Positions 5,757 to 53,748 of a stretch of DNA of 54,273 bases are shown piece by piece; within the stretch, counting starts at the first letter, position 1; every line of letters starts with the position of its first letter. Location of the stretch: NCBI GenBank assembly GCA_004195025.1, contig SGBB01000016.1, positions 1-54,273 on the forward strand, read 5' to 3'. The notes beneath the pieces are model-generated. The model worked only from the letters and a program-made list of their open reading frames with translations. It did not search any database and had not been told where the DNA came from. This DNA comes from Candidatus Acidulidesulfobacter diazotrophicus. Its GTDB lineage: Bacteria; SZUA-79; Acidulodesulfobacterales; Acidulodesulfobacteraceae. The position numbers and the translations under genes are program-made.

Positions 5757-6025
5757 TTATTTAATTATATATATATATTTATTTTTATATTTTAATTAAT
5801 ATATTTTTTTAATTTATAAATAAATAAATATTTACATCTGATTTTTTTATTATATTATATATATAGATTTATTTTAAATTTTTTTATATTTTAATTAACA
5901 TATTTTTTTTAATTTCAAAATAAATAAATAAATATTTACATCTGATATTCCTACGAATAATTATATTATATTATATTATATTATATTATATTATATTATA
6001 TTATATTATATTATATTATATTATA
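5757..6025. repeat. AT-rich region with 100-bp duplication and (TTATA)13
   Basis: The gap between bioD and the hydrolase gene holds two direct copies of about 63 bp (about 5779-5842 and 5879-5945, ending ATTTACATCTGAT). They are followed by thirteen tandem TTATA units at 5961-6025. The pentanucleotide array ends 43 bp before the next start codon, so it lies in or next to that gene's promoter. No ORF is present. Such arrays are prone to slippage, and a copy change would move any promoter element by 5 bp steps. Confidence 0.85.
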
Positions 6026-6068
6026 TAGATTTATTTTAAATTTTTTTAATATTATTTAAGGATTTTTT

Positions 6069-8844: not shown

Positions 8845-9228
8845 TAAATAAATTTACGATATAATTGTCAAAAAGTTCTTAATCTTAATCTTAATCTTAA
8901 TCTTAATCTTAATCTTAATCTTAATCTAGAAATATATTAAATATAATAATGTTCTATTAAAACAATAATGCTAAAAACTTTTTACAATAATTATAATTGG
9001 GTTATTACATAAATAATCGGCAAATATATTTTTTTAATTTAAATCCCGATAATATACTACCTTTATTATATTAATAGAAAATTGTATAAAATCTGGAAAA
9101 CAATATATAAAATATAAACTTATTAAATTCAATCAACAACAACAAACAAATACCCGATATAAACGGAATAACCCAATAAATTAAAATAATTGTTATAATT
9201 AATAAAAAAAATAAAAGATTTTGGAACG
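8845..9228. repeat. Intergenic region with (CTTAAT)8
   Basis: Eight perfect copies of the hexamer CTTAAT occupy 8878-8925, immediately after a TCAAAAAGTT segment. A related AACTTTTTACA lies about 100 bp further on, giving a weak inverted repeat around the array. The rest of the 384 bp between folK and the convergent speD is AT-rich sequence with no ORF, tRNA or clear terminator. Confidence 0.8.
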
Positions 9229-27350: not shown

Positions 27351-29225
27351 ATGCATTTCAATATATTAATTATAGGTTCGGGAATAGCGGGATTAAGTCT
27401 TGCAAATAGATATCCTAAAAATATATCCGTAGGTATTTTTACCAAAAAAGAAGAAGCTGAATCTAACACAAATTATGCTCAGGGTGGATTAGCGGCCGTT
27501 ACTAATTTTAAAGATTCGGTAGATCTTCACGTAAAAGATACTTTAATTGCCGGAGACGGTATTTGCAATGAAGAAGTTGTAAGAATGGTTGTTGAAGAAG
27601 GTCCTGCCGTTGTTGAAGATCTTTTAAACTGGGGAGTTAATTTTGCCAGATATAAAGAAAATGAAGAAACTTTTGATTTAGGCAGAGAAGGCGGACATTC
27701 TCAAAGAAGGGTATTACACGCAGGGGATATAACGGGAAGAGAAATAGAAAGAGCTTTAGTTGAAAATTCAAGACAAAAAAACAATATTTCAATTTTTGAA
27801 AATCATATTGCTATTGATTTAATTACGTCTAATAAATTAAAAAAATTAAACAATAAAGATAAAGATAAAGATAAAGATAAAGATAAAGATAAAGATAAAG
27901 CCGATAGAGTTCTCGGAGCTTATTTTTTAGATAAAACAACAAATGAGGTGAGAACAGTCAGCGCTGATTTTGTTGTACTTGCCACGGGAGGAGCAGGAAA
28001 GGTTTTTCTTTATACTTCTAACCCCGATATTTCAACAGGCGACGGCATTGCAATGGCTCATAGAACAGGGGCAAAAATAGCAAATATGGAATTTTATCAG
28101 TTTCATCCGACAATTCTTTATCATCCGGAAGCAAAATCGTTTTTAATATCGGAAGCTTTAAGGGGCGAAGGGGGAGTTTTAAGACTTAAAGACGGAACTC
28201 CGTTTATGGACAATGTTCATCCTCTGAAAAGCCTTGCTCCAAGAGATATTGTGGCAAGAACGATTGATTTTGAAATGAAAAGAACTGGAGACGAATGTGT
28301 TTATCTTGATATGACTCATAAATCAAGAGAATTTTTAGAAAAAAGATTCCCTGATATTTTTAAAACTACGCTTAGTTTTGGAATTGATATGTCAAAACAA
28401 TGGATTCCTGTTGTTCCTGCGGCTCATTATCTTTGCGGAGGAGTCTTAACCGATAAAAACGGTTTAACTTCCGTTGAAAATTTATATGCTATCGGAGAAG
28501 CTGCATATACAGGACTTCATGGAGCCAATAGGCTTGCAAGCAATTCGCTTCTTGAGGGTTGTGTTTTTGCTAAAAAAGCATATGAATCTACGATAGAAAA
28601 ATTAAAGATTTTACAATCAGGAAATGCCGGAAATAGCCCAAATAATTATTATAATGATAAAGATAAAACAAATATAAACAAAGAAAATAAATATAACGGT
28701 AATGATAGCATAAATAATATTAATAATAAAAATAAAACAGAAATAAACAATAAAGAAAACATCAAATATAATTCTCTTAATAATTATAGCGATAGCGATA
28801 ATAGCAATACAAATAATAAACAGGAATACAATTTAAAAAATAATATTGCTGCAAACAGCAAGACTAATTTGCCTGAAATTCCTGAATGGAAAGATTTTGG
28901 ACTTGAAGGCGGAGACGAGATTATCGTTATTACTCATAACTGGGACGAATTAAGAAGGGCGATGTGGAATTATGTGGGTATTGTAAGATCAGATAAAAGG
29001 CTTGAAAGAGCAAAAAGAAGAATAGATAATCTTTTGGCTGAAATTAAAGAATATTACTGGAACTTTAAAATATCATCAGATTTGATAGAATTAAGAAATA
29101 TTGCCGAAGTTGCTAATTTAATCATCACATCGGCTATGTTAAGAAAAGAATCAAGAGGAACTCATTATACGATTGATTACCCCAATAAAGACGATATTAA
29201 CTTTAAACACCCTACCGTTTTATAA
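27351..29225 (+). CDS. nadB: L-aspartate oxidase with two low-complexity insertions
   Basis: NadB oxidises L-aspartate to iminoaspartate for NAD synthesis, using FAD. The N-terminal dinucleotide motif ILIIGSGIAGLSLA, NYAQGGLAAVT, HSQRRVLHAGDITGREIE, and FHPTILYHPEAKSFLISEALR followed by GEGG are intact. The 624-residue length exceeds the usual 530. A (KD)n run at about 169-183 is encoded by seven AAAGAT units (27855-27896). An Asn/Lys-rich block at about 424-505 lies between the FAD domain and the C-terminal helical domain. Both keep frame. No nadA or nadC is in the window. Confidence 0.93.
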   Translation: MHFNILIIGSGIAGLSLANRYPKNISVGIFTKKEEAESNTNYAQGGLAAVTNFKDSVDLHVKDTLIAGDGICNEEVVRMVVEEGPAVVEDLLNWGVNFARYKENEETFDLGREGGHSQRRVLHAGDITGREIERALVENSRQKNNISIFENHIAIDLITSNKLKKLNNKDKDKDKDKDKDKDKADRVLGAYFLDKTTNEVRTVSADFVVLATGGAGKVFLYTSNPDISTGDGIAMAHRTGAKIANMEFYQFHPTILYHPEAKSFLISEALRGEGGVLRLKDGTPFMDNVHPLKSLAPRDIVARTIDFEMKRTGDECVYLDMTHKSREFLEKRFPDIFKTTLSFGIDMSKQWIPVVPAAHYLCGGVLTDKNGLTSVENLYAIGEAAYTGLHGANRLASNSLLEGCVFAKKAYESTIEKLKILQSGNAGNSPNNYYNDKDKTNINKENKYNGNDSINNINNKNKTEINNKENIKYNSLNNYSDSDNSNTNNKQEYNLKNNIAANSKTNLPEIPEWKDFGLEGGDEIIVITHNWDELRRAMWNYVGIVRSDKRLERAKRRIDNLLAEIKEYYWNFKISSDLIELRNIAEVANLIITSAMLRKESRGTHYTIDYPNKDDINFKHPTVL

Positions 29226-32871: not shown

Positions 32872-35265
32872 TTATTTTATATATGCGACTTTATTTCCGC
32901 CTGCGTTTTTGGCGTCATACATTGCATTATCCGCCCTATATGCTATGCTCTGGTTTGTATCGCCTTTTTTTGCTTCTGTAATACCGAAGCTGCAGGTTAC
33001 TACGGTTTCTATATTAAAATTATTTGATTCTATTTTTAATCTTAATCTTTCCGCAAGATCTATTGCGGTTCCCATTGCAGTTTCGGGATATAATATCATA
33101 AATTCGTCGCCTCCGTATCTTGCGAAAAAGTCTGTGTTTCTTAAATTTTGTTTAATAATTCCGGTTATTTCTTTTAAAATATAATCGCCTATTTCATGAC
33201 CGAATGTGTCGTTTATTTCTTTAAATTTATCTATGTCAAACATTGTCAGCGATAGCGGTCTGTTATATCTGACTGTGATATTAAGCAGTTCCGTAAGTTT
33301 ATTGTCAAACGAACGTCTGTTGCTAATTCTCGTAAGTTCATCTATTTCAGATAATTCTTTATATGTTTCTTTTTCTATTAGAATATGCTCTTCTTTAAGA
33401 ACCCGGTCCGTAACATCTAAAAATATGGCAAGACCTGTTTGTTCGTTGTTGTATATTACAGCTGTTCTAAATAAGTCTATATATCTGATTTTATTATTAT
33501 CTATTATTTTGCCGATAGTTTCTTTATTTTTATTGTCATTTTTATTATCATTATATTTATAGATAAATCTGGAAGACAGTTCGTTGTTAAAATATGTTTT
33601 AAAAATAGGTGATTTTGGGTTATATATCATAGATTCATCAATTGAAAAGAAATCAATTACATTTAAACTTAAGAATTCTTCTTTAGTATAATTAAACATA
33701 TCAAGTAAAGCTGAATTGACATAAATAAACTTATCTTCCGTATATAAGGCTATACCTGAGTTTATATTTTCAACTAATACTTTTAAAAGTTCTCTATCTT
33801 TTTCAAGCTGATTCCTCAGATTTATCATTTCTGTTATATCAAAAAATGTCGCAAGCATTGTATTTTTATATTTTATTGCTGCCGTTTGCCATAAAAGCCA
33901 TATCTGACTTCCGTCATTTTTTATACCTTTTACAACATATTTGTTTGATGTGTTTGATTGATATATTTGCTTATAAAATATTTTATGCATTTCATTTCGT
34001 TTTATTTCATCATCATAAATAAGCGAAAAAGGATTTAGCCCGATTAATTCATTAACTTTATATCCAAATATTTCGGAGGCTATTTGATTTGCGTAGATTA
34101 TTTTTTCTTTATCGTATAATATTAATCCGGAGGTAAGATGAGTTGATAGCGATTTAAACAATTCTTCCGATTCTTTTAACTTATTTTCTGCGAGTTTTCT
34201 TTCCGTTATATCCTGTATTATAGAAATAACATAATTTTTATTATTTACATAGATAGGAGATATATGAACTTCTACATTTTTTAATTCGTCTTTTGCAGTT
34301 TTATGCGTGAATGTAAAATAATTTTTTTCTTTATTAAAAGCTTGTTTTGTGTATTTCAGGAGTTCGCTTTTAGGCGTGGCGTTAAATTCATAATTATACA
34401 TTGTTTTAAACTTTTCCTTGCCGTATCCGTAAAAATCAACCGCCGCATCATTCGCATCAATGATTTTCCCATTTTCGTCAACTAATATCATTATTGCCGA
34501 ATTATCTTTGAAAATTGATTGAAAAATATTATTGGTGTTTTTAAGATTTTCAAAATATTTTATTACATAATTAATAAATATCATACCCGTAATAATTGCA
34601 AAAACGGTCATAAATATAAATATAGAAATATAAATATAAAAAATATATTTAAACCGTTTGAGGGCATATTTTATTAATGGAATAGAAGGCAATATTAAAG
34701 AAGACAATCCTGACGATGATTTAGAAAAAAAACCGTATGATAATTTATGTGAAATAATTTTATTATATTTCAATAACCTTAAAACTAAAGGCGCATCAAT
34801 ATTTTTCCAGTCAAAATAAGATTTATTGAAAGATGAAATGATTTTGGGATCATAATCGGCATTATGATGCCTTGTTTTAGAAATAAATAGGGCAAAATTT
34901 TTATAATCTGTATTTATTTTTTTAAAACTTACTTTTATTTTATCTATGTAAAAATTTAATTTATTTTTATTGTAAGCTTTGCCGTTTTTACCGCTATTTA
35001 ACTTAATAAAACTGTGATTATAGTCAATTTTATTAAGTTTATTTATATTATAAACGAGACTTAAGTCTTCTATCCCTTCAACATTCTTTTTAAGCGCTCT
35101 TATATTTTTATTTAGCTTTATTGATTTCAAATGAAATTCAACATTATATATCACATAATTTTTAACGGGGATTATGCCGAAAATATAAATCAATATAGCC
35201 ACAGCTATCGCCGCTATTAAATAAAATATTTCAAAATAAATTAAACATTTTCTTTTTCTTTTCAT
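32872..35265 (-). CDS. Membrane PAS-PAS-PAS-GGDEF diguanylate cyclase
   Basis: A 797-residue protein. Two membrane helices (about 9-31 and 210-235) flank a periplasmic domain. Three PAS-like domains follow (motifs such as ILVDENGKIIDANDAAVDFY, IIYANQIASEIFGY and FIYVNSALLDMFNYT), then a GGDEF domain with ARYGGDEF at about 718-722 and an intact RNTD inhibitory site five residues earlier. It should make c-di-GMP in response to unknown signals. The ATG at 35265 has no ribosome-binding site. A better start with GGAG lies upstream at 35306, separated by an 11-base C tract that puts it out of frame (see the separate entry). Confidence 0.9.
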   Translation of the reverse strand: MKRKRKCLIYFEIFYLIAAIAVAILIYIFGIIPVKNYVIYNVEFHLKSIKLNKNIRALKKNVEGIEDLSLVYNINKLNKIDYNHSFIKLNSGKNGKAYNKNKLNFYIDKIKVSFKKINTDYKNFALFISKTRHHNADYDPKIISSFNKSYFDWKNIDAPLVLRLLKYNKIISHKLSYGFFSKSSSGLSSLILPSIPLIKYALKRFKYIFYIYISIFIFMTVFAIITGMIFINYVIKYFENLKNTNNIFQSIFKDNSAIMILVDENGKIIDANDAAVDFYGYGKEKFKTMYNYEFNATPKSELLKYTKQAFNKEKNYFTFTHKTAKDELKNVEVHISPIYVNNKNYVISIIQDITERKLAENKLKESEELFKSLSTHLTSGLILYDKEKIIYANQIASEIFGYKVNELIGLNPFSLIYDDEIKRNEMHKIFYKQIYQSNTSNKYVVKGIKNDGSQIWLLWQTAAIKYKNTMLATFFDITEMINLRNQLEKDRELLKVLVENINSGIALYTEDKFIYVNSALLDMFNYTKEEFLSLNVIDFFSIDESMIYNPKSPIFKTYFNNELSSRFIYKYNDNKNDNKNKETIGKIIDNNKIRYIDLFRTAVIYNNEQTGLAIFLDVTDRVLKEEHILIEKETYKELSEIDELTRISNRRSFDNKLTELLNITVRYNRPLSLTMFDIDKFKEINDTFGHEIGDYILKEITGIIKQNLRNTDFFARYGGDEFMILYPETAMGTAIDLAERLRLKIESNNFNIETVVTCSFGITEAKKGDTNQSIAYRADNAMYDAKNAGGNKVAYIK

Positions 35266-35316
35266 AAAAAGCGGCCGGGGGGGGGGGTATTTATTTTCTC
35301 ATCCATATTTCTCCAA
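35262..35316 (-). promoter_or_regulatory. Upstream ORF with poly-C tract before PAS-GGDEF
   Basis: On the minus strand, GGAG (35314-35311) precedes an ATG at 35306-35304. The frame reads ATG GAT GAG AAA ATA AAT A, then eleven C (35287-35277), then GGCCGCTTTTTATGA. With 11 C the small frame ends at TGA overlapping the annotated ATG of the cyclase (ATGA). With 12 or 9 C the upstream ATG would be in frame with the cyclase. This is the layout of a slipped-strand contingency locus. Tract and frames are read directly; the switching role is inferred. Homopolymer length can also be an assembly error. Confidence 0.6.
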
Positions 35317-35478
35317 TTAACAATAAGCTAAAATATTATTGTTAATATTTATATTGCCAAGATTCAAAAAGAAAAAATAATGTTTATAAAATAAAATTAA
35401 TTAATAATTATAAAAATAAAAAATTAATGTTTATAAAAGGGCTGTATTAGTGATATGATTTTTATTGCCAAAAATTTT

Positions 35479-35589
35479 AATAAATTAAATAAATTAAATA
35501 AATTAAATAAATTAAATAAATTAAATAAATTAAATAAATTAAATAAATTAAATAAATTAAATAAATTAAATAAATTAAATAAATTAAAC
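35479..35589. repeat. 9-bp tandem array (AAATTAAAT)12
   Basis: About twelve near-perfect copies of a 9-bp unit lie in the 490-bp region between the two divergently transcribed GGDEF genes. They could influence spacing or DNA shape for either promoter. The remainder of the region is AT-rich with no ORF. Confidence 0.9.
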
Positions 35590-35636: not shown

Positions 35637-35665
35637 TTGACATATCAAATTTAATTATATAAAAT
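35637..35665 (+). promoter_or_regulatory. Promoter of the second PAS-GGDEF gene
   Basis: TTGACA at 35637-35642, a 17-base spacer and TAAAAT at 35660-35665 match a sigma70 promoter about 90 bp upstream of the ATG. The 9-bp array ends 48 bp before the -35 box. Confidence 0.55.
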
Positions 35666-35755: not shown

Positions 35756-36955
35756 ATGCCGGCAGCCGATGATGCAGAACATATAAATAATATAAATATA
35801 TTAGATAATAATCCAAATTTATATTTAAATAAAACATTAAATAAAACAGAAGATAAAGAAGATAATATGTTAAATTTAAAGTTAAATAATTATACTAATA
35901 GCAACAATAATAACTGCGGCAATGATAATACGATAAATCCGGCGTTTATTGAAGAAAATATCATCAATGGAGTTGACGATATAGCAATTTCCGATATATT
36001 AAATTCAATGGACGAAGCTGTTATAATTACCAATAATGAAAATAAAATATTATTTTGCAATAATTATTTTACAATTAATTTTAGTATTAGTTTGAATAAT
36101 TGTTTAAACAGAAATATTAAAGAAATTAGTTTTTTTAAATATTTATTTTCCGATGATTTAATAGTACCTTCAGAGATTAGAGACTTAGCCTCAGGGTATA
36201 AAGTGACCAATATACATGAAATTGACAATAAAAATCATTATTTTGAAAACGACAGAATACCTATTTACGACCATAGCGGCGAAACAAAAGGAATTATTTA
36301 TTTAATCAGAGATATTACAAAAGAAATAAAATTTGAACAAAAATTAAATATACTTGCAAAAACCGATAGTCTTTCGGGATTATATAATTCAAGATATTTT
36401 TACGAAGAATTAGAAAAAGAAATCGCAAGATGCGCAAGATATGATTGCGATCTTGTTTTAATGTTTATAGATATTGATAATTTTAAAATGTTTAACGACA
36501 CATTTAGCCATAAAGCAGGCGATGAAATAATTAAATTTACCGCTGCCTCATTAAATAATTCCGTAAGAAAAAAAATTGATGTTATCTGCAGATACGGCGG
36601 AGATGAATTTGTCGCTATACTTCCAAATACTGATGCAAATCGTTCTACTATTGTAGCTAACAGGATATTAAATTATTTTAATAACGGTTTCAATGATAAA
36701 TTAAAGAATATTATTGGAGAAATTAAAGAAAAAGAAAATGATTCAATAAATGTGGCAGAAAATAATAAAATCAATATTGACAGTCATTTAGAACGCAACA
36801 GCAATAACATTTTTGATAATAAAAAAATAAGTTTATCAATCGGAATAAGCGAATATAAAAACGGAAAAAAAGCCAAAGAACTGATAAACGAAGCAGACGG
36901 CGCAATGTATAAAGCTAAACAGCAAAACGGCGGGAGATTTTATATTTATAAATAA
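35756..36955 (+). CDS. Cytoplasmic PAS-GGDEF diguanylate cyclase
   Basis: A 399-residue protein without membrane helices. An Asn-rich tail (about 1-65) precedes a PAS-like domain (about 78-195, MDEAVIITNNENKILFCNNY) and a GGDEF domain (from about 202, TDSLSGLYNSRYF) with intact RYGGDEF near 281. The usual RxxD inhibitory site is altered: the residues at that place read KKID, so product inhibition may be weakened. A polar insertion of about 40 residues (about 320-357) interrupts the domain before the conserved ISLSIGISEY. AAGGAG lies upstream of the ATG. Confidence 0.88.
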   Translation: MPAADDAEHINNINILDNNPNLYLNKTLNKTEDKEDNMLNLKLNNYTNSNNNNCGNDNTINPAFIEENIINGVDDIAISDILNSMDEAVIITNNENKILFCNNYFTINFSISLNNCLNRNIKEISFFKYLFSDDLIVPSEIRDLASGYKVTNIHEIDNKNHYFENDRIPIYDHSGETKGIIYLIRDITKEIKFEQKLNILAKTDSLSGLYNSRYFYEELEKEIARCARYDCDLVLMFIDIDNFKMFNDTFSHKAGDEIIKFTAASLNNSVRKKIDVICRYGGDEFVAILPNTDANRSTIVANRILNYFNNGFNDKLKNIIGEIKEKENDSINVAENNKINIDSHLERNSNNIFDNKKISLSIGISEYKNGKKAKELINEADGAMYKAKQQNGGRFYIYK

Positions 36956-52555: not shown

Positions 52556-53636
52556 ATATTTTTTCTATCATTTCATTATATTCTTTTAAGGCATCGCTAT
52601 AAATTGTTATTCCGCCGCCGCTTCTATAATATAATTTATCGTCTTTATTTTCAATAAATCTTATCATAACGGAACTTTTAAGGCAATTTCTTATTCCGTC
52701 GTAATAACCGAAAACACCTGTATAATAGCCTCTCGGTTCTAATTCAGCCTGTTTAATTATTTCTATCGTTTTGTTTTTAGGGGCACCTGAAATTGAACCT
52801 GCAGGTAATAATTTTAAAAAAATATCCCCTAATTTTTTGATATAATTGTTTTTTAATTTGCCTTCAATTTCTGAAACCATTTGCAATAATGAATCTGCGT
52901 TTGTTCTAATTTTTTCTATATAACGGAATTTGTTTAACTTTACCTCGGAACTTACTATATTTAAATCATTTCTCAATAAATCTACGACTGTTAAATGTTC
53001 GGCTAATTCTTTGCTATTATGCAATAAATTTTTTTTAGAGTTTCGCAATTTAGTGTCGGTTGTTCCTTTTATGGGATATGTAAAAATTCTATTTTTTTCG
53101 TCTATATTTATAAAAGTTTCAGGAGAAAAAACTACAAATTCATAACCGTCTTTGATAAAATAAAGCTTATATTTTGCATTACTTAAATAAAAAATATTTT
53201 CTAACGATAAATTATTAATTTCTATAGGCGTTTTAAATGTCAGATTTAAAAGAAAAGAATTACCTTTTTTTTGCTCATCGGTTACTAATTTGAATCTATT
53301 ATTGTATGTTTCAAAATTTATAGGAAATTTTTTTATGGATATATTTTTATAATTTTTAATATTTTTTTGTTTATTATTGTAATTATTTTGATTATAATTT
53401 TTAAATCCGTCTATGTTATATTTTATTTTTATTGTTTTATTATTAATAATATTACTTTTGCAATATTTATTAATATACAAGCCATTAGCTTCAGATAACT
53501 TAAATATTAAAGGCGATTTTAATTCATAATCAATAATAAAAACAAAACTTATATTGTTTTCAGCATAATAATTCATTAAATCAAAGAAATTTAATTTATT
53601 TGCGATATTATTACTAAAATTGTTATTACAATCCAT
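52539..53636 (-). CDS. pabB: Aminodeoxychorismate synthase component I
   Basis: A 365-residue chorismate-binding enzyme. Visible motifs are FTYPIKGTTD (the PIKGT Lys distinguishes PabB from TrpE), LLRNDLNIVS, LLPAGSISGAPKNKT and YRSGGGITIYSDALKEYNEM. It aminates chorismate with ammonia from a PabA partner not seen here. The N-terminal domain is reduced and contains an Asn/Lys-rich stretch (about 70-105). The ATG directly abuts an 11-bp tandem array, so there is no conventional ribosome-binding site. Confidence 0.92.
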   Translation of the reverse strand: MDCNNNFSNNIANKLNFFDLMNYYAENNISFVFIIDYELKSPLIFKLSEANGLYINKYCKSNIINNKTIKIKYNIDGFKNYNQNNYNNKQKNIKNYKNISIKKFPINFETYNNRFKLVTDEQKKGNSFLLNLTFKTPIEINNLSLENIFYLSNAKYKLYFIKDGYEFVVFSPETFINIDEKNRIFTYPIKGTTDTKLRNSKKNLLHNSKELAEHLTVVDLLRNDLNIVSSEVKLNKFRYIEKIRTNADSLLQMVSEIEGKLKNNYIKKLGDIFLKLLPAGSISGAPKNKTIEIIKQAELEPRGYYTGVFGYYDGIRNCLKSSVMIRFIENKDDKLYYRSGGGITIYSDALKEYNEMIEKIYVPIY

Positions 53637-53748
53637 TATTATTTAATTATTATTTAATTATTATTTAATTATTATTTAATTATTATTTAATTATTATTTA
53701 ATTATTATTTAATTATTATTTAATTATTATTTAATTATTATTTAATTA
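53637..53748. repeat. 11-bp tandem array abutting the pabB start
   Basis: About ten copies of an 11-bp unit (TTATTTAATTA) run without interruption up to the pabB start codon at 53636. The array therefore forms the whole proximal leader, and possibly the promoter, of the pabBC operon. Confidence 0.92.

Follow-up and report, generated by a model that had tools for sequence, protein, structure and literature searches.

A poly-C tract in the leader of a PAS-GGDEF diguanylate cyclase gene: a probable phase-variable locus in Candidatus Acidulidesulfobacter diazotrophicus

In Candidatus Acidulidesulfobacter diazotrophicus, an uncultivated acid-mine bacterium, a run of 11 C residues lies within a short leader open reading frame that precedes the gene for a membrane PAS-GGDEF diguanylate cyclase, and the length of this run sets, in silico, how the leader frame meets the cyclase start codon. 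The locus is probably a phase-variable simple-sequence contingency locus with three states: fused and ON, coupled and low, or overrun and OFF. It is located in the window, the whole stretch of 54,273 nucleotides analysed here, which is contig 16 of a genome of 2,459,539 bases in 47 contigs. The initial annotation of this DNA had proposed that a slippage-prone tract sets the frame into the cyclase; this proposal is supported by the anatomy of the locus and by comparisons covering the leaders of sister species, the geometry of sigma factor and paralogous genes, the enrichment of tracts at GGDEF genes, and the lack of MutS1 and MutL. On a somewhat less firm footing, it is suggested that poly-G/C contingency tracts are built into the c-di-GMP network of the whole class to which the organism belongs, a class without mismatch repair. 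Many sensor cyclases and an RpoS-like sigma factor would then be independently phase-variable, by reading frame or by promoter spacer, and each clone would be a combinatorial c-di-GMP mixture.

No other C or G run in the window exceeds 6, and the shorter runs drop geometrically in number (62 runs of 4, 15 of 5 and one of 6). At 28.5% GC, a C/G run of 11 is expected by chance about 0.002 times per 2.46-Mb genome. A homopolymer much longer than chance is a mark of simple-sequence contingency loci, and the run is as striking as it had at first appeared. Seven C/G runs of at least 9 are present in the genome, four of them 11–13 long. A bimodality of C/G run lengths in the fetched loci was set aside, since these loci had been picked for having tracts and are therefore biased.

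Reading along the minus strand, the order of elements is GGAG, ATG 35306, AATA, the 11 C and GGCCGCTTTTT-ATGA (Table 1); the GGAG and ATG that had been reported upstream of the tract on the coding strand are indeed present. A complication that the initial annotation missed is a competing minigene, the ATG of which (35302) is 8 nt from the GGAG. It is better spaced than ATG 35306 and could compete with it. The annotated cyclase start, ATG 35265, does lack a Shine–Dalgarno sequence, as had been claimed, but the weight of this as evidence is weak. Such a site is found at just 13 of the 34 window genes (start codons assumed), so its absence at ATG 35265 is not proof of leader dependence. The missing site was rejected as strong evidence that this start is weak, and ATG 35265 may serve as an independent start. 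Similarly, the leader stop does fall on an ATGA overlap at 11 C, but coupled re-initiation need not be the sole route to the cyclase, as had been argued, because ATG 35265 could act alone.

Table 1. Features of the tract locus and its surroundings (window coordinates; G002, G004 and G005 are sister-species genomes)
Feature	Position	Strand	Basis
Poly-C tract of 11 C in coding orientation (11 G on +)	35277..35287	-	Sequence
Leader ORF, MDEKINTPPPGRFL-stop; encloses the tract; its stop TGA (35264-35262) overlaps the cyclase ATG 35265 as ATGA	35262..35306	-	Sequence; leader kept in four sister species
GGAG, Shine–Dalgarno-like site of the leader	35311..35314	-	Sequence; GGAG also in G004, G005 and G002 leaders
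Competing 3-codon minigene ATG AGA AAA TAA (ATG 35302)	35291..35302	-	Sequence; stops before the tract; missing from sister-species leaders
Possible promoter of the leader transcript, TTGGCA-16-TAATAT, weak	35333..35360	-	Motif match, not above shuffled expectation
Membrane PAS-PAS-PAS-GGDEF diguanylate cyclase, 797 aa, with predicted N-terminal TM / extracytoplasmic / TM region	32872..35265	-	Domain search; TM reading from sequence
GGDEF domain	32890..33348	-	Pfam PF00990, E 3.7e-42
Second GGDEF protein, 399 aa, divergently transcribed; marks the syntenic locus in sister species	35756..36955	+	ORF and GGDEF match
Perfect tandem array of a 9-bp unit (12.2 copies) in the intergenic region of the divergent GGDEF pair, upstream of the 399-aa gene	35479..35588		Repeat scan

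The consequence of each tract length n was computed in silico, and it follows n modulo 3, a placement in which length would change expression. With 9, 12 or 15 C, the leader and the cyclase are fused in frame, which bears out the initial reading for 9 and 12 C. With 8, 11 or 14 C, the leader stop falls on the ATGA overlap with the cyclase start, within a few nucleotides of it as in a coupled gene pair. With 10 or 13 C, the leader overruns the cyclase ATG by 35 nt in the wrong frame. The assembled tract has 11 C. In the proposed mechanism, cyclase mRNA would be translated from the leader ATG 35306, and slippage of the tract would shift the locus reversibly among the three states, uncorrected because the lineage is without mismatch repair. 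Fusion at 9 or 12 C would be the ON state and overrun at 10 or 13 C the OFF state. At 8, 11 or 14 C the cyclase would be made at a low or intermediate level, via termination–reinitiation or from its own ATG, and the assembled tract would represent this low, coupled state. Toggling of a sensor cyclase would diversify the c-di-GMP level among sister cells, and this diversity would probably bear on attachment versus dispersal.

The cyclase has an intact GGDEF motif and an intact RxxD inhibitory-site motif (RNTD-5-GGDEF). The 9-bp array between the two divergent GGDEF genes is one unit shorter in the window (12 perfect units) than in G006 (SKS5.bin53), the nearest relative at 95% protein identity, which has 13. 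The second GGDEF gene has a good promoter, TTGACA-17-TAAAAT (35637–35665), and the array lies about 50 bp upstream of it. Other perfect tandem arrays in the window are a 5-mer ×13 (5960–6026), a 6-mer ×8.5 (8877–8927), a 6-mer ×8 (27853–27900) and an 11-mer ×10 (53635–53748). These four adjoin gene starts or sit within genes, and simple repeats are unusually abundant in the genome.

The leader, from its Shine–Dalgarno site and ATG through AATA to the C run, can be aligned across five species (the window and G001, G002, G004 and G005) with a mean column identity of 73%; the site of G001 reads GGGA rather than GGAG. The flank is thus conserved while the orthologous tracts differ in length, each species being represented by one genome: C11 in the window, C12 in G001, an interrupted C7-A-C8 in G002, C14 in G004 and C12 in G005. 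Counting tract lengths in related genomes was a check suggested at the outset, and it has revealed variation. The divergent pair of a 399-aa GGDEF gene and a PAS-GGDEF gene recurs in G001 and, judged from the positions of GGDEF matches, in G002. In G004 and G005 the orthologous cyclase and its leader are found on a short contig. The cyclases of four sister species are without the sensor region, their ORFs being 542–543 aa. A fusion of leader and cyclase was sought in four sister species (the fourth represented by locus L029) and none was found; stops between the leader and the cyclase close the frames, and the tract there cannot therefore set the cyclase frame. It may survive there as a relic, or act as a leader rheostat. 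Since these leaders no longer run into the cyclase, it is at the window gene that frame control has its strongest support. The tract length of G006 could not be read because an assembly gap spans the tract: one contig ends 49 bp before it, and the other starts 91 bp beyond.

The same design is found at other genes. In G006 a paralogous cyclase (L240) has C15 in a leader with a putative TTG start; in silico, this leader would be fused at 14 or 17 C and would overlap as ATGA at 13 or 16 C. The orthologue of L240 in the window genome has no tract. Poly-C leaders also precede sigma factor genes (L211, L217, L234, L238 and L074), the products of which match Pfam sigma-70 r2/r4 and are nearest to NCBIfam rpoS_proteo, below its cut-off; a first assignment to FliA was dropped on these grounds. 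The leader of this RpoS-like sigma factor ends on ATGA in G001 (C11) and is fused in G003 and G005 (C12). In G006 (C9) and LSA5.bin80 (C12), ATA replaces the internal ATG, and the leader start, which has a good Shine–Dalgarno sequence and is in frame, is left as the only one able to make protein. These two sigma genes provide the best evidence that such leaders are real starts. TonB receptors have a poly-G tract near codon 17 (L239, L242, L243, L244 and L207); two of the G006 paralogues are in frame (n = 12 and 10) and two are out of frame (n = 10 plus an extra base, and n = 11).

Among GGDEF genes of other genera, the coding tract of L330 (n = 13) is in frame and that of L358 (n = 10) is out of frame. 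A further set of GGDEF tracts consists of poly-G runs between TTGAxx and TATAAT/TATTAT, i.e. within the spacer between the −35 and −10 elements. These spacers measure 18 (L307), 15 (L313), 16 (L232), 17 (L361), 18 (L342), 25 (L331) and 22 (L212). A scan for promoter-like matches around tracts, which counts orthologues separately, found 25 on the G strand and 3 on the C strand against a mean of 6.6 in shuffled flanks, although several of the 25 are spurious TonB coding tracts. The leader cassette ATGRTAAAATATAATATTAATATCA-Cn is also present upstream of a Protoglobin-GGDEF gene, with C15–C20 (L213:4253-4272, L368:3526-3540 and L074:4330-4344); in G001 (L213), a Protoglobin-HD-GYP gene is situated on the opposite side of the tract.

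It is unlikely that the hypermutable tract acts not as a frame switch but as a rheostat in the 5′ leader, through ribosome-binding-site spacing or structure, premature termination or as the target of a G-rich small RNA. Such a role would fit the persistence of leader and tract in four sister species despite frames that close before the cyclase, and the position of other GGDEF tracts in promoter spacers. However, the leaders of the window gene, of the paralogue L240 and of the sigma genes all hold the tract inside an ORF whose frame meets the gene start, and two sigma genes require the fused frame.

The class was surveyed as this family alone, in 30 genomes, and tracts of at least 10 are present in 28 of them. 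Nearly all tracts were taken for the linkage analysis (at least 9 long in the genus and at least 10 elsewhere; n = 151), and 25 of the 151 are GGDEF-linked, lying at most 450 bp upstream of a GGDEF ORF or within its 5′ end; the count would rise to 26 if L232, an orthologous tract lying where a contig ends, were included. Among tract-linked genes, 20/106 encode GGDEF proteins versus 5/353 control genes, which were drawn from the same loci but at a distance from any tract (odds ratio 16, p = 8e-10). Genome-wide, the GGDEF share is about 0.75% of genes (about 367 matches in about 54.5 Mb, at the gene density of the window genome). GGDEF is also the top Pfam family among tract-linked genes (20/102). 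A GGDEF target had at first been regarded as unusual. It does differ from the surface genes otherwise known, but it is not an isolated oddity, being the commonest tract-linked family in the class. The 25 GGDEF-linked tracts fall into nine protein groups, of which group 1 is broad; orthologues among them are not independent. In group 3 the tracts occupy two positions, a promoter spacer and the coding sequence. The recurrence in nine groups and at two positions in group 3 points to selection for tracts at GGDEF genes. A second recurrent target in the tract-linked set is a family of CobB/CobQ-like amidotransferases (CbiA + GATase_3), with six members.

These figures also bear on the possibility that the cyclase is expressed constitutively from ATG 35265, as an SD-less or leaderless start, with the tract a neutral consequence of the loss of mismatch repair. 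In its favour, many window genes start without a Shine–Dalgarno sequence, the G002 and G004 paralogues do so at the equivalent MK... codon, and mismatch repair is absent. Neutral tracts should not, however, cluster about 16-fold (odds ratio) at GGDEF genes or recur at two positions in one protein group, and this explanation is considered very improbable.

Mismatch repair of the MutS/MutL type is lacking from the whole class, which has no MutS1 and no recognisable full MutL. MutS1 was absent from 30/30 class genomes and found in 11/14 controls, while MutL exceeded the cut-off in 0/30 class genomes and was positive in 11/14 controls. Campylobacter jejuni has no functional mismatch repair, and indels arise in its repeats at rates of 1e-4 to 1.6e-3 per division (PMC8355987). 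Of the class tracts of at least 10, 17/132 are no more than 100 bp from a contig end, where about 1.5 would be expected; either real length mixtures or sequencing trouble would account for this excess. That the 11-C call is an assembly or sequencing artefact, the true tract being invariably in frame at 9 or 12 C and the N-terminus of the cyclase just being longer, is the least probable explanation: the data are a SPAdes co-assembly of Illumina reads (PMC6776010) and the contig-end excess suggests that tracts are hard to assemble, but breaks at tracts are also expected from real length mixtures, and an artefact leaves the conservation of the tract in sister species and the GGDEF enrichment unexplained.

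The mechanism of the proposed frame switch is already known; what is not described in the searchable open-access papers is its target class, its class-wide recurrence and its free-living setting. As here, the poly-G/C contingency loci of Campylobacter, Helicobacter and Neisseria have long G/C homopolymers in the 5′ part of the coding sequence or in a promoter spacer, and promoter-spacer homopolymer switches exist among them. Length likewise sets the frame or the −35/−10 spacing, and Campylobacter is also without mismatch repair (PMC8355987). Unlike those organisms, which are host-associated, the bacterium here is a free-living acidophile, in which the tracts are linked most often to diguanylate cyclase genes, and also to a sigma factor gene, rather than chiefly to surface structures. 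Clostridioides difficile pdcB and pdcC similarly provide phase-variable c-di-GMP turnover, but there a phosphodiesterase is switched by DNA inversion (PMC9286219; reviewed in PMC10333796), in contrast to a cyclase and proposed slippage here. In the searchable literature, pdcB is the sole precedent found for a phase-variable c-di-GMP enzyme. The G-repeat in the Helicobacter pylori tlpB leader, the target of the small RNA RepG, is also a variable homopolymer in the mRNA leader of a sensory gene; it differs in being a small-RNA rheostat, without fusion of a leader ORF to the gene. Translational coupling through ATGA resembles the locus at n = 11, where the leader stop overlaps the next start, but in the locus described here the overlap is present at some tract lengths alone. 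No description of a homopolymer-switched diguanylate cyclase was found in the open-access literature, the scope of the search, and the terms 'c-di-GMP' and 'diguanylate' are absent from the main text of the paper describing the window genome.

Phase variation by slippage is mostly known from host-associated bacteria, where it acts on surface structures and modification enzymes. The preferred targets in these free-living acid-mine bacteria appear to be second-messenger enzymes that stand atop the decision between motile and sessile life. If this is true, a signalling network can itself incorporate bet-hedging.
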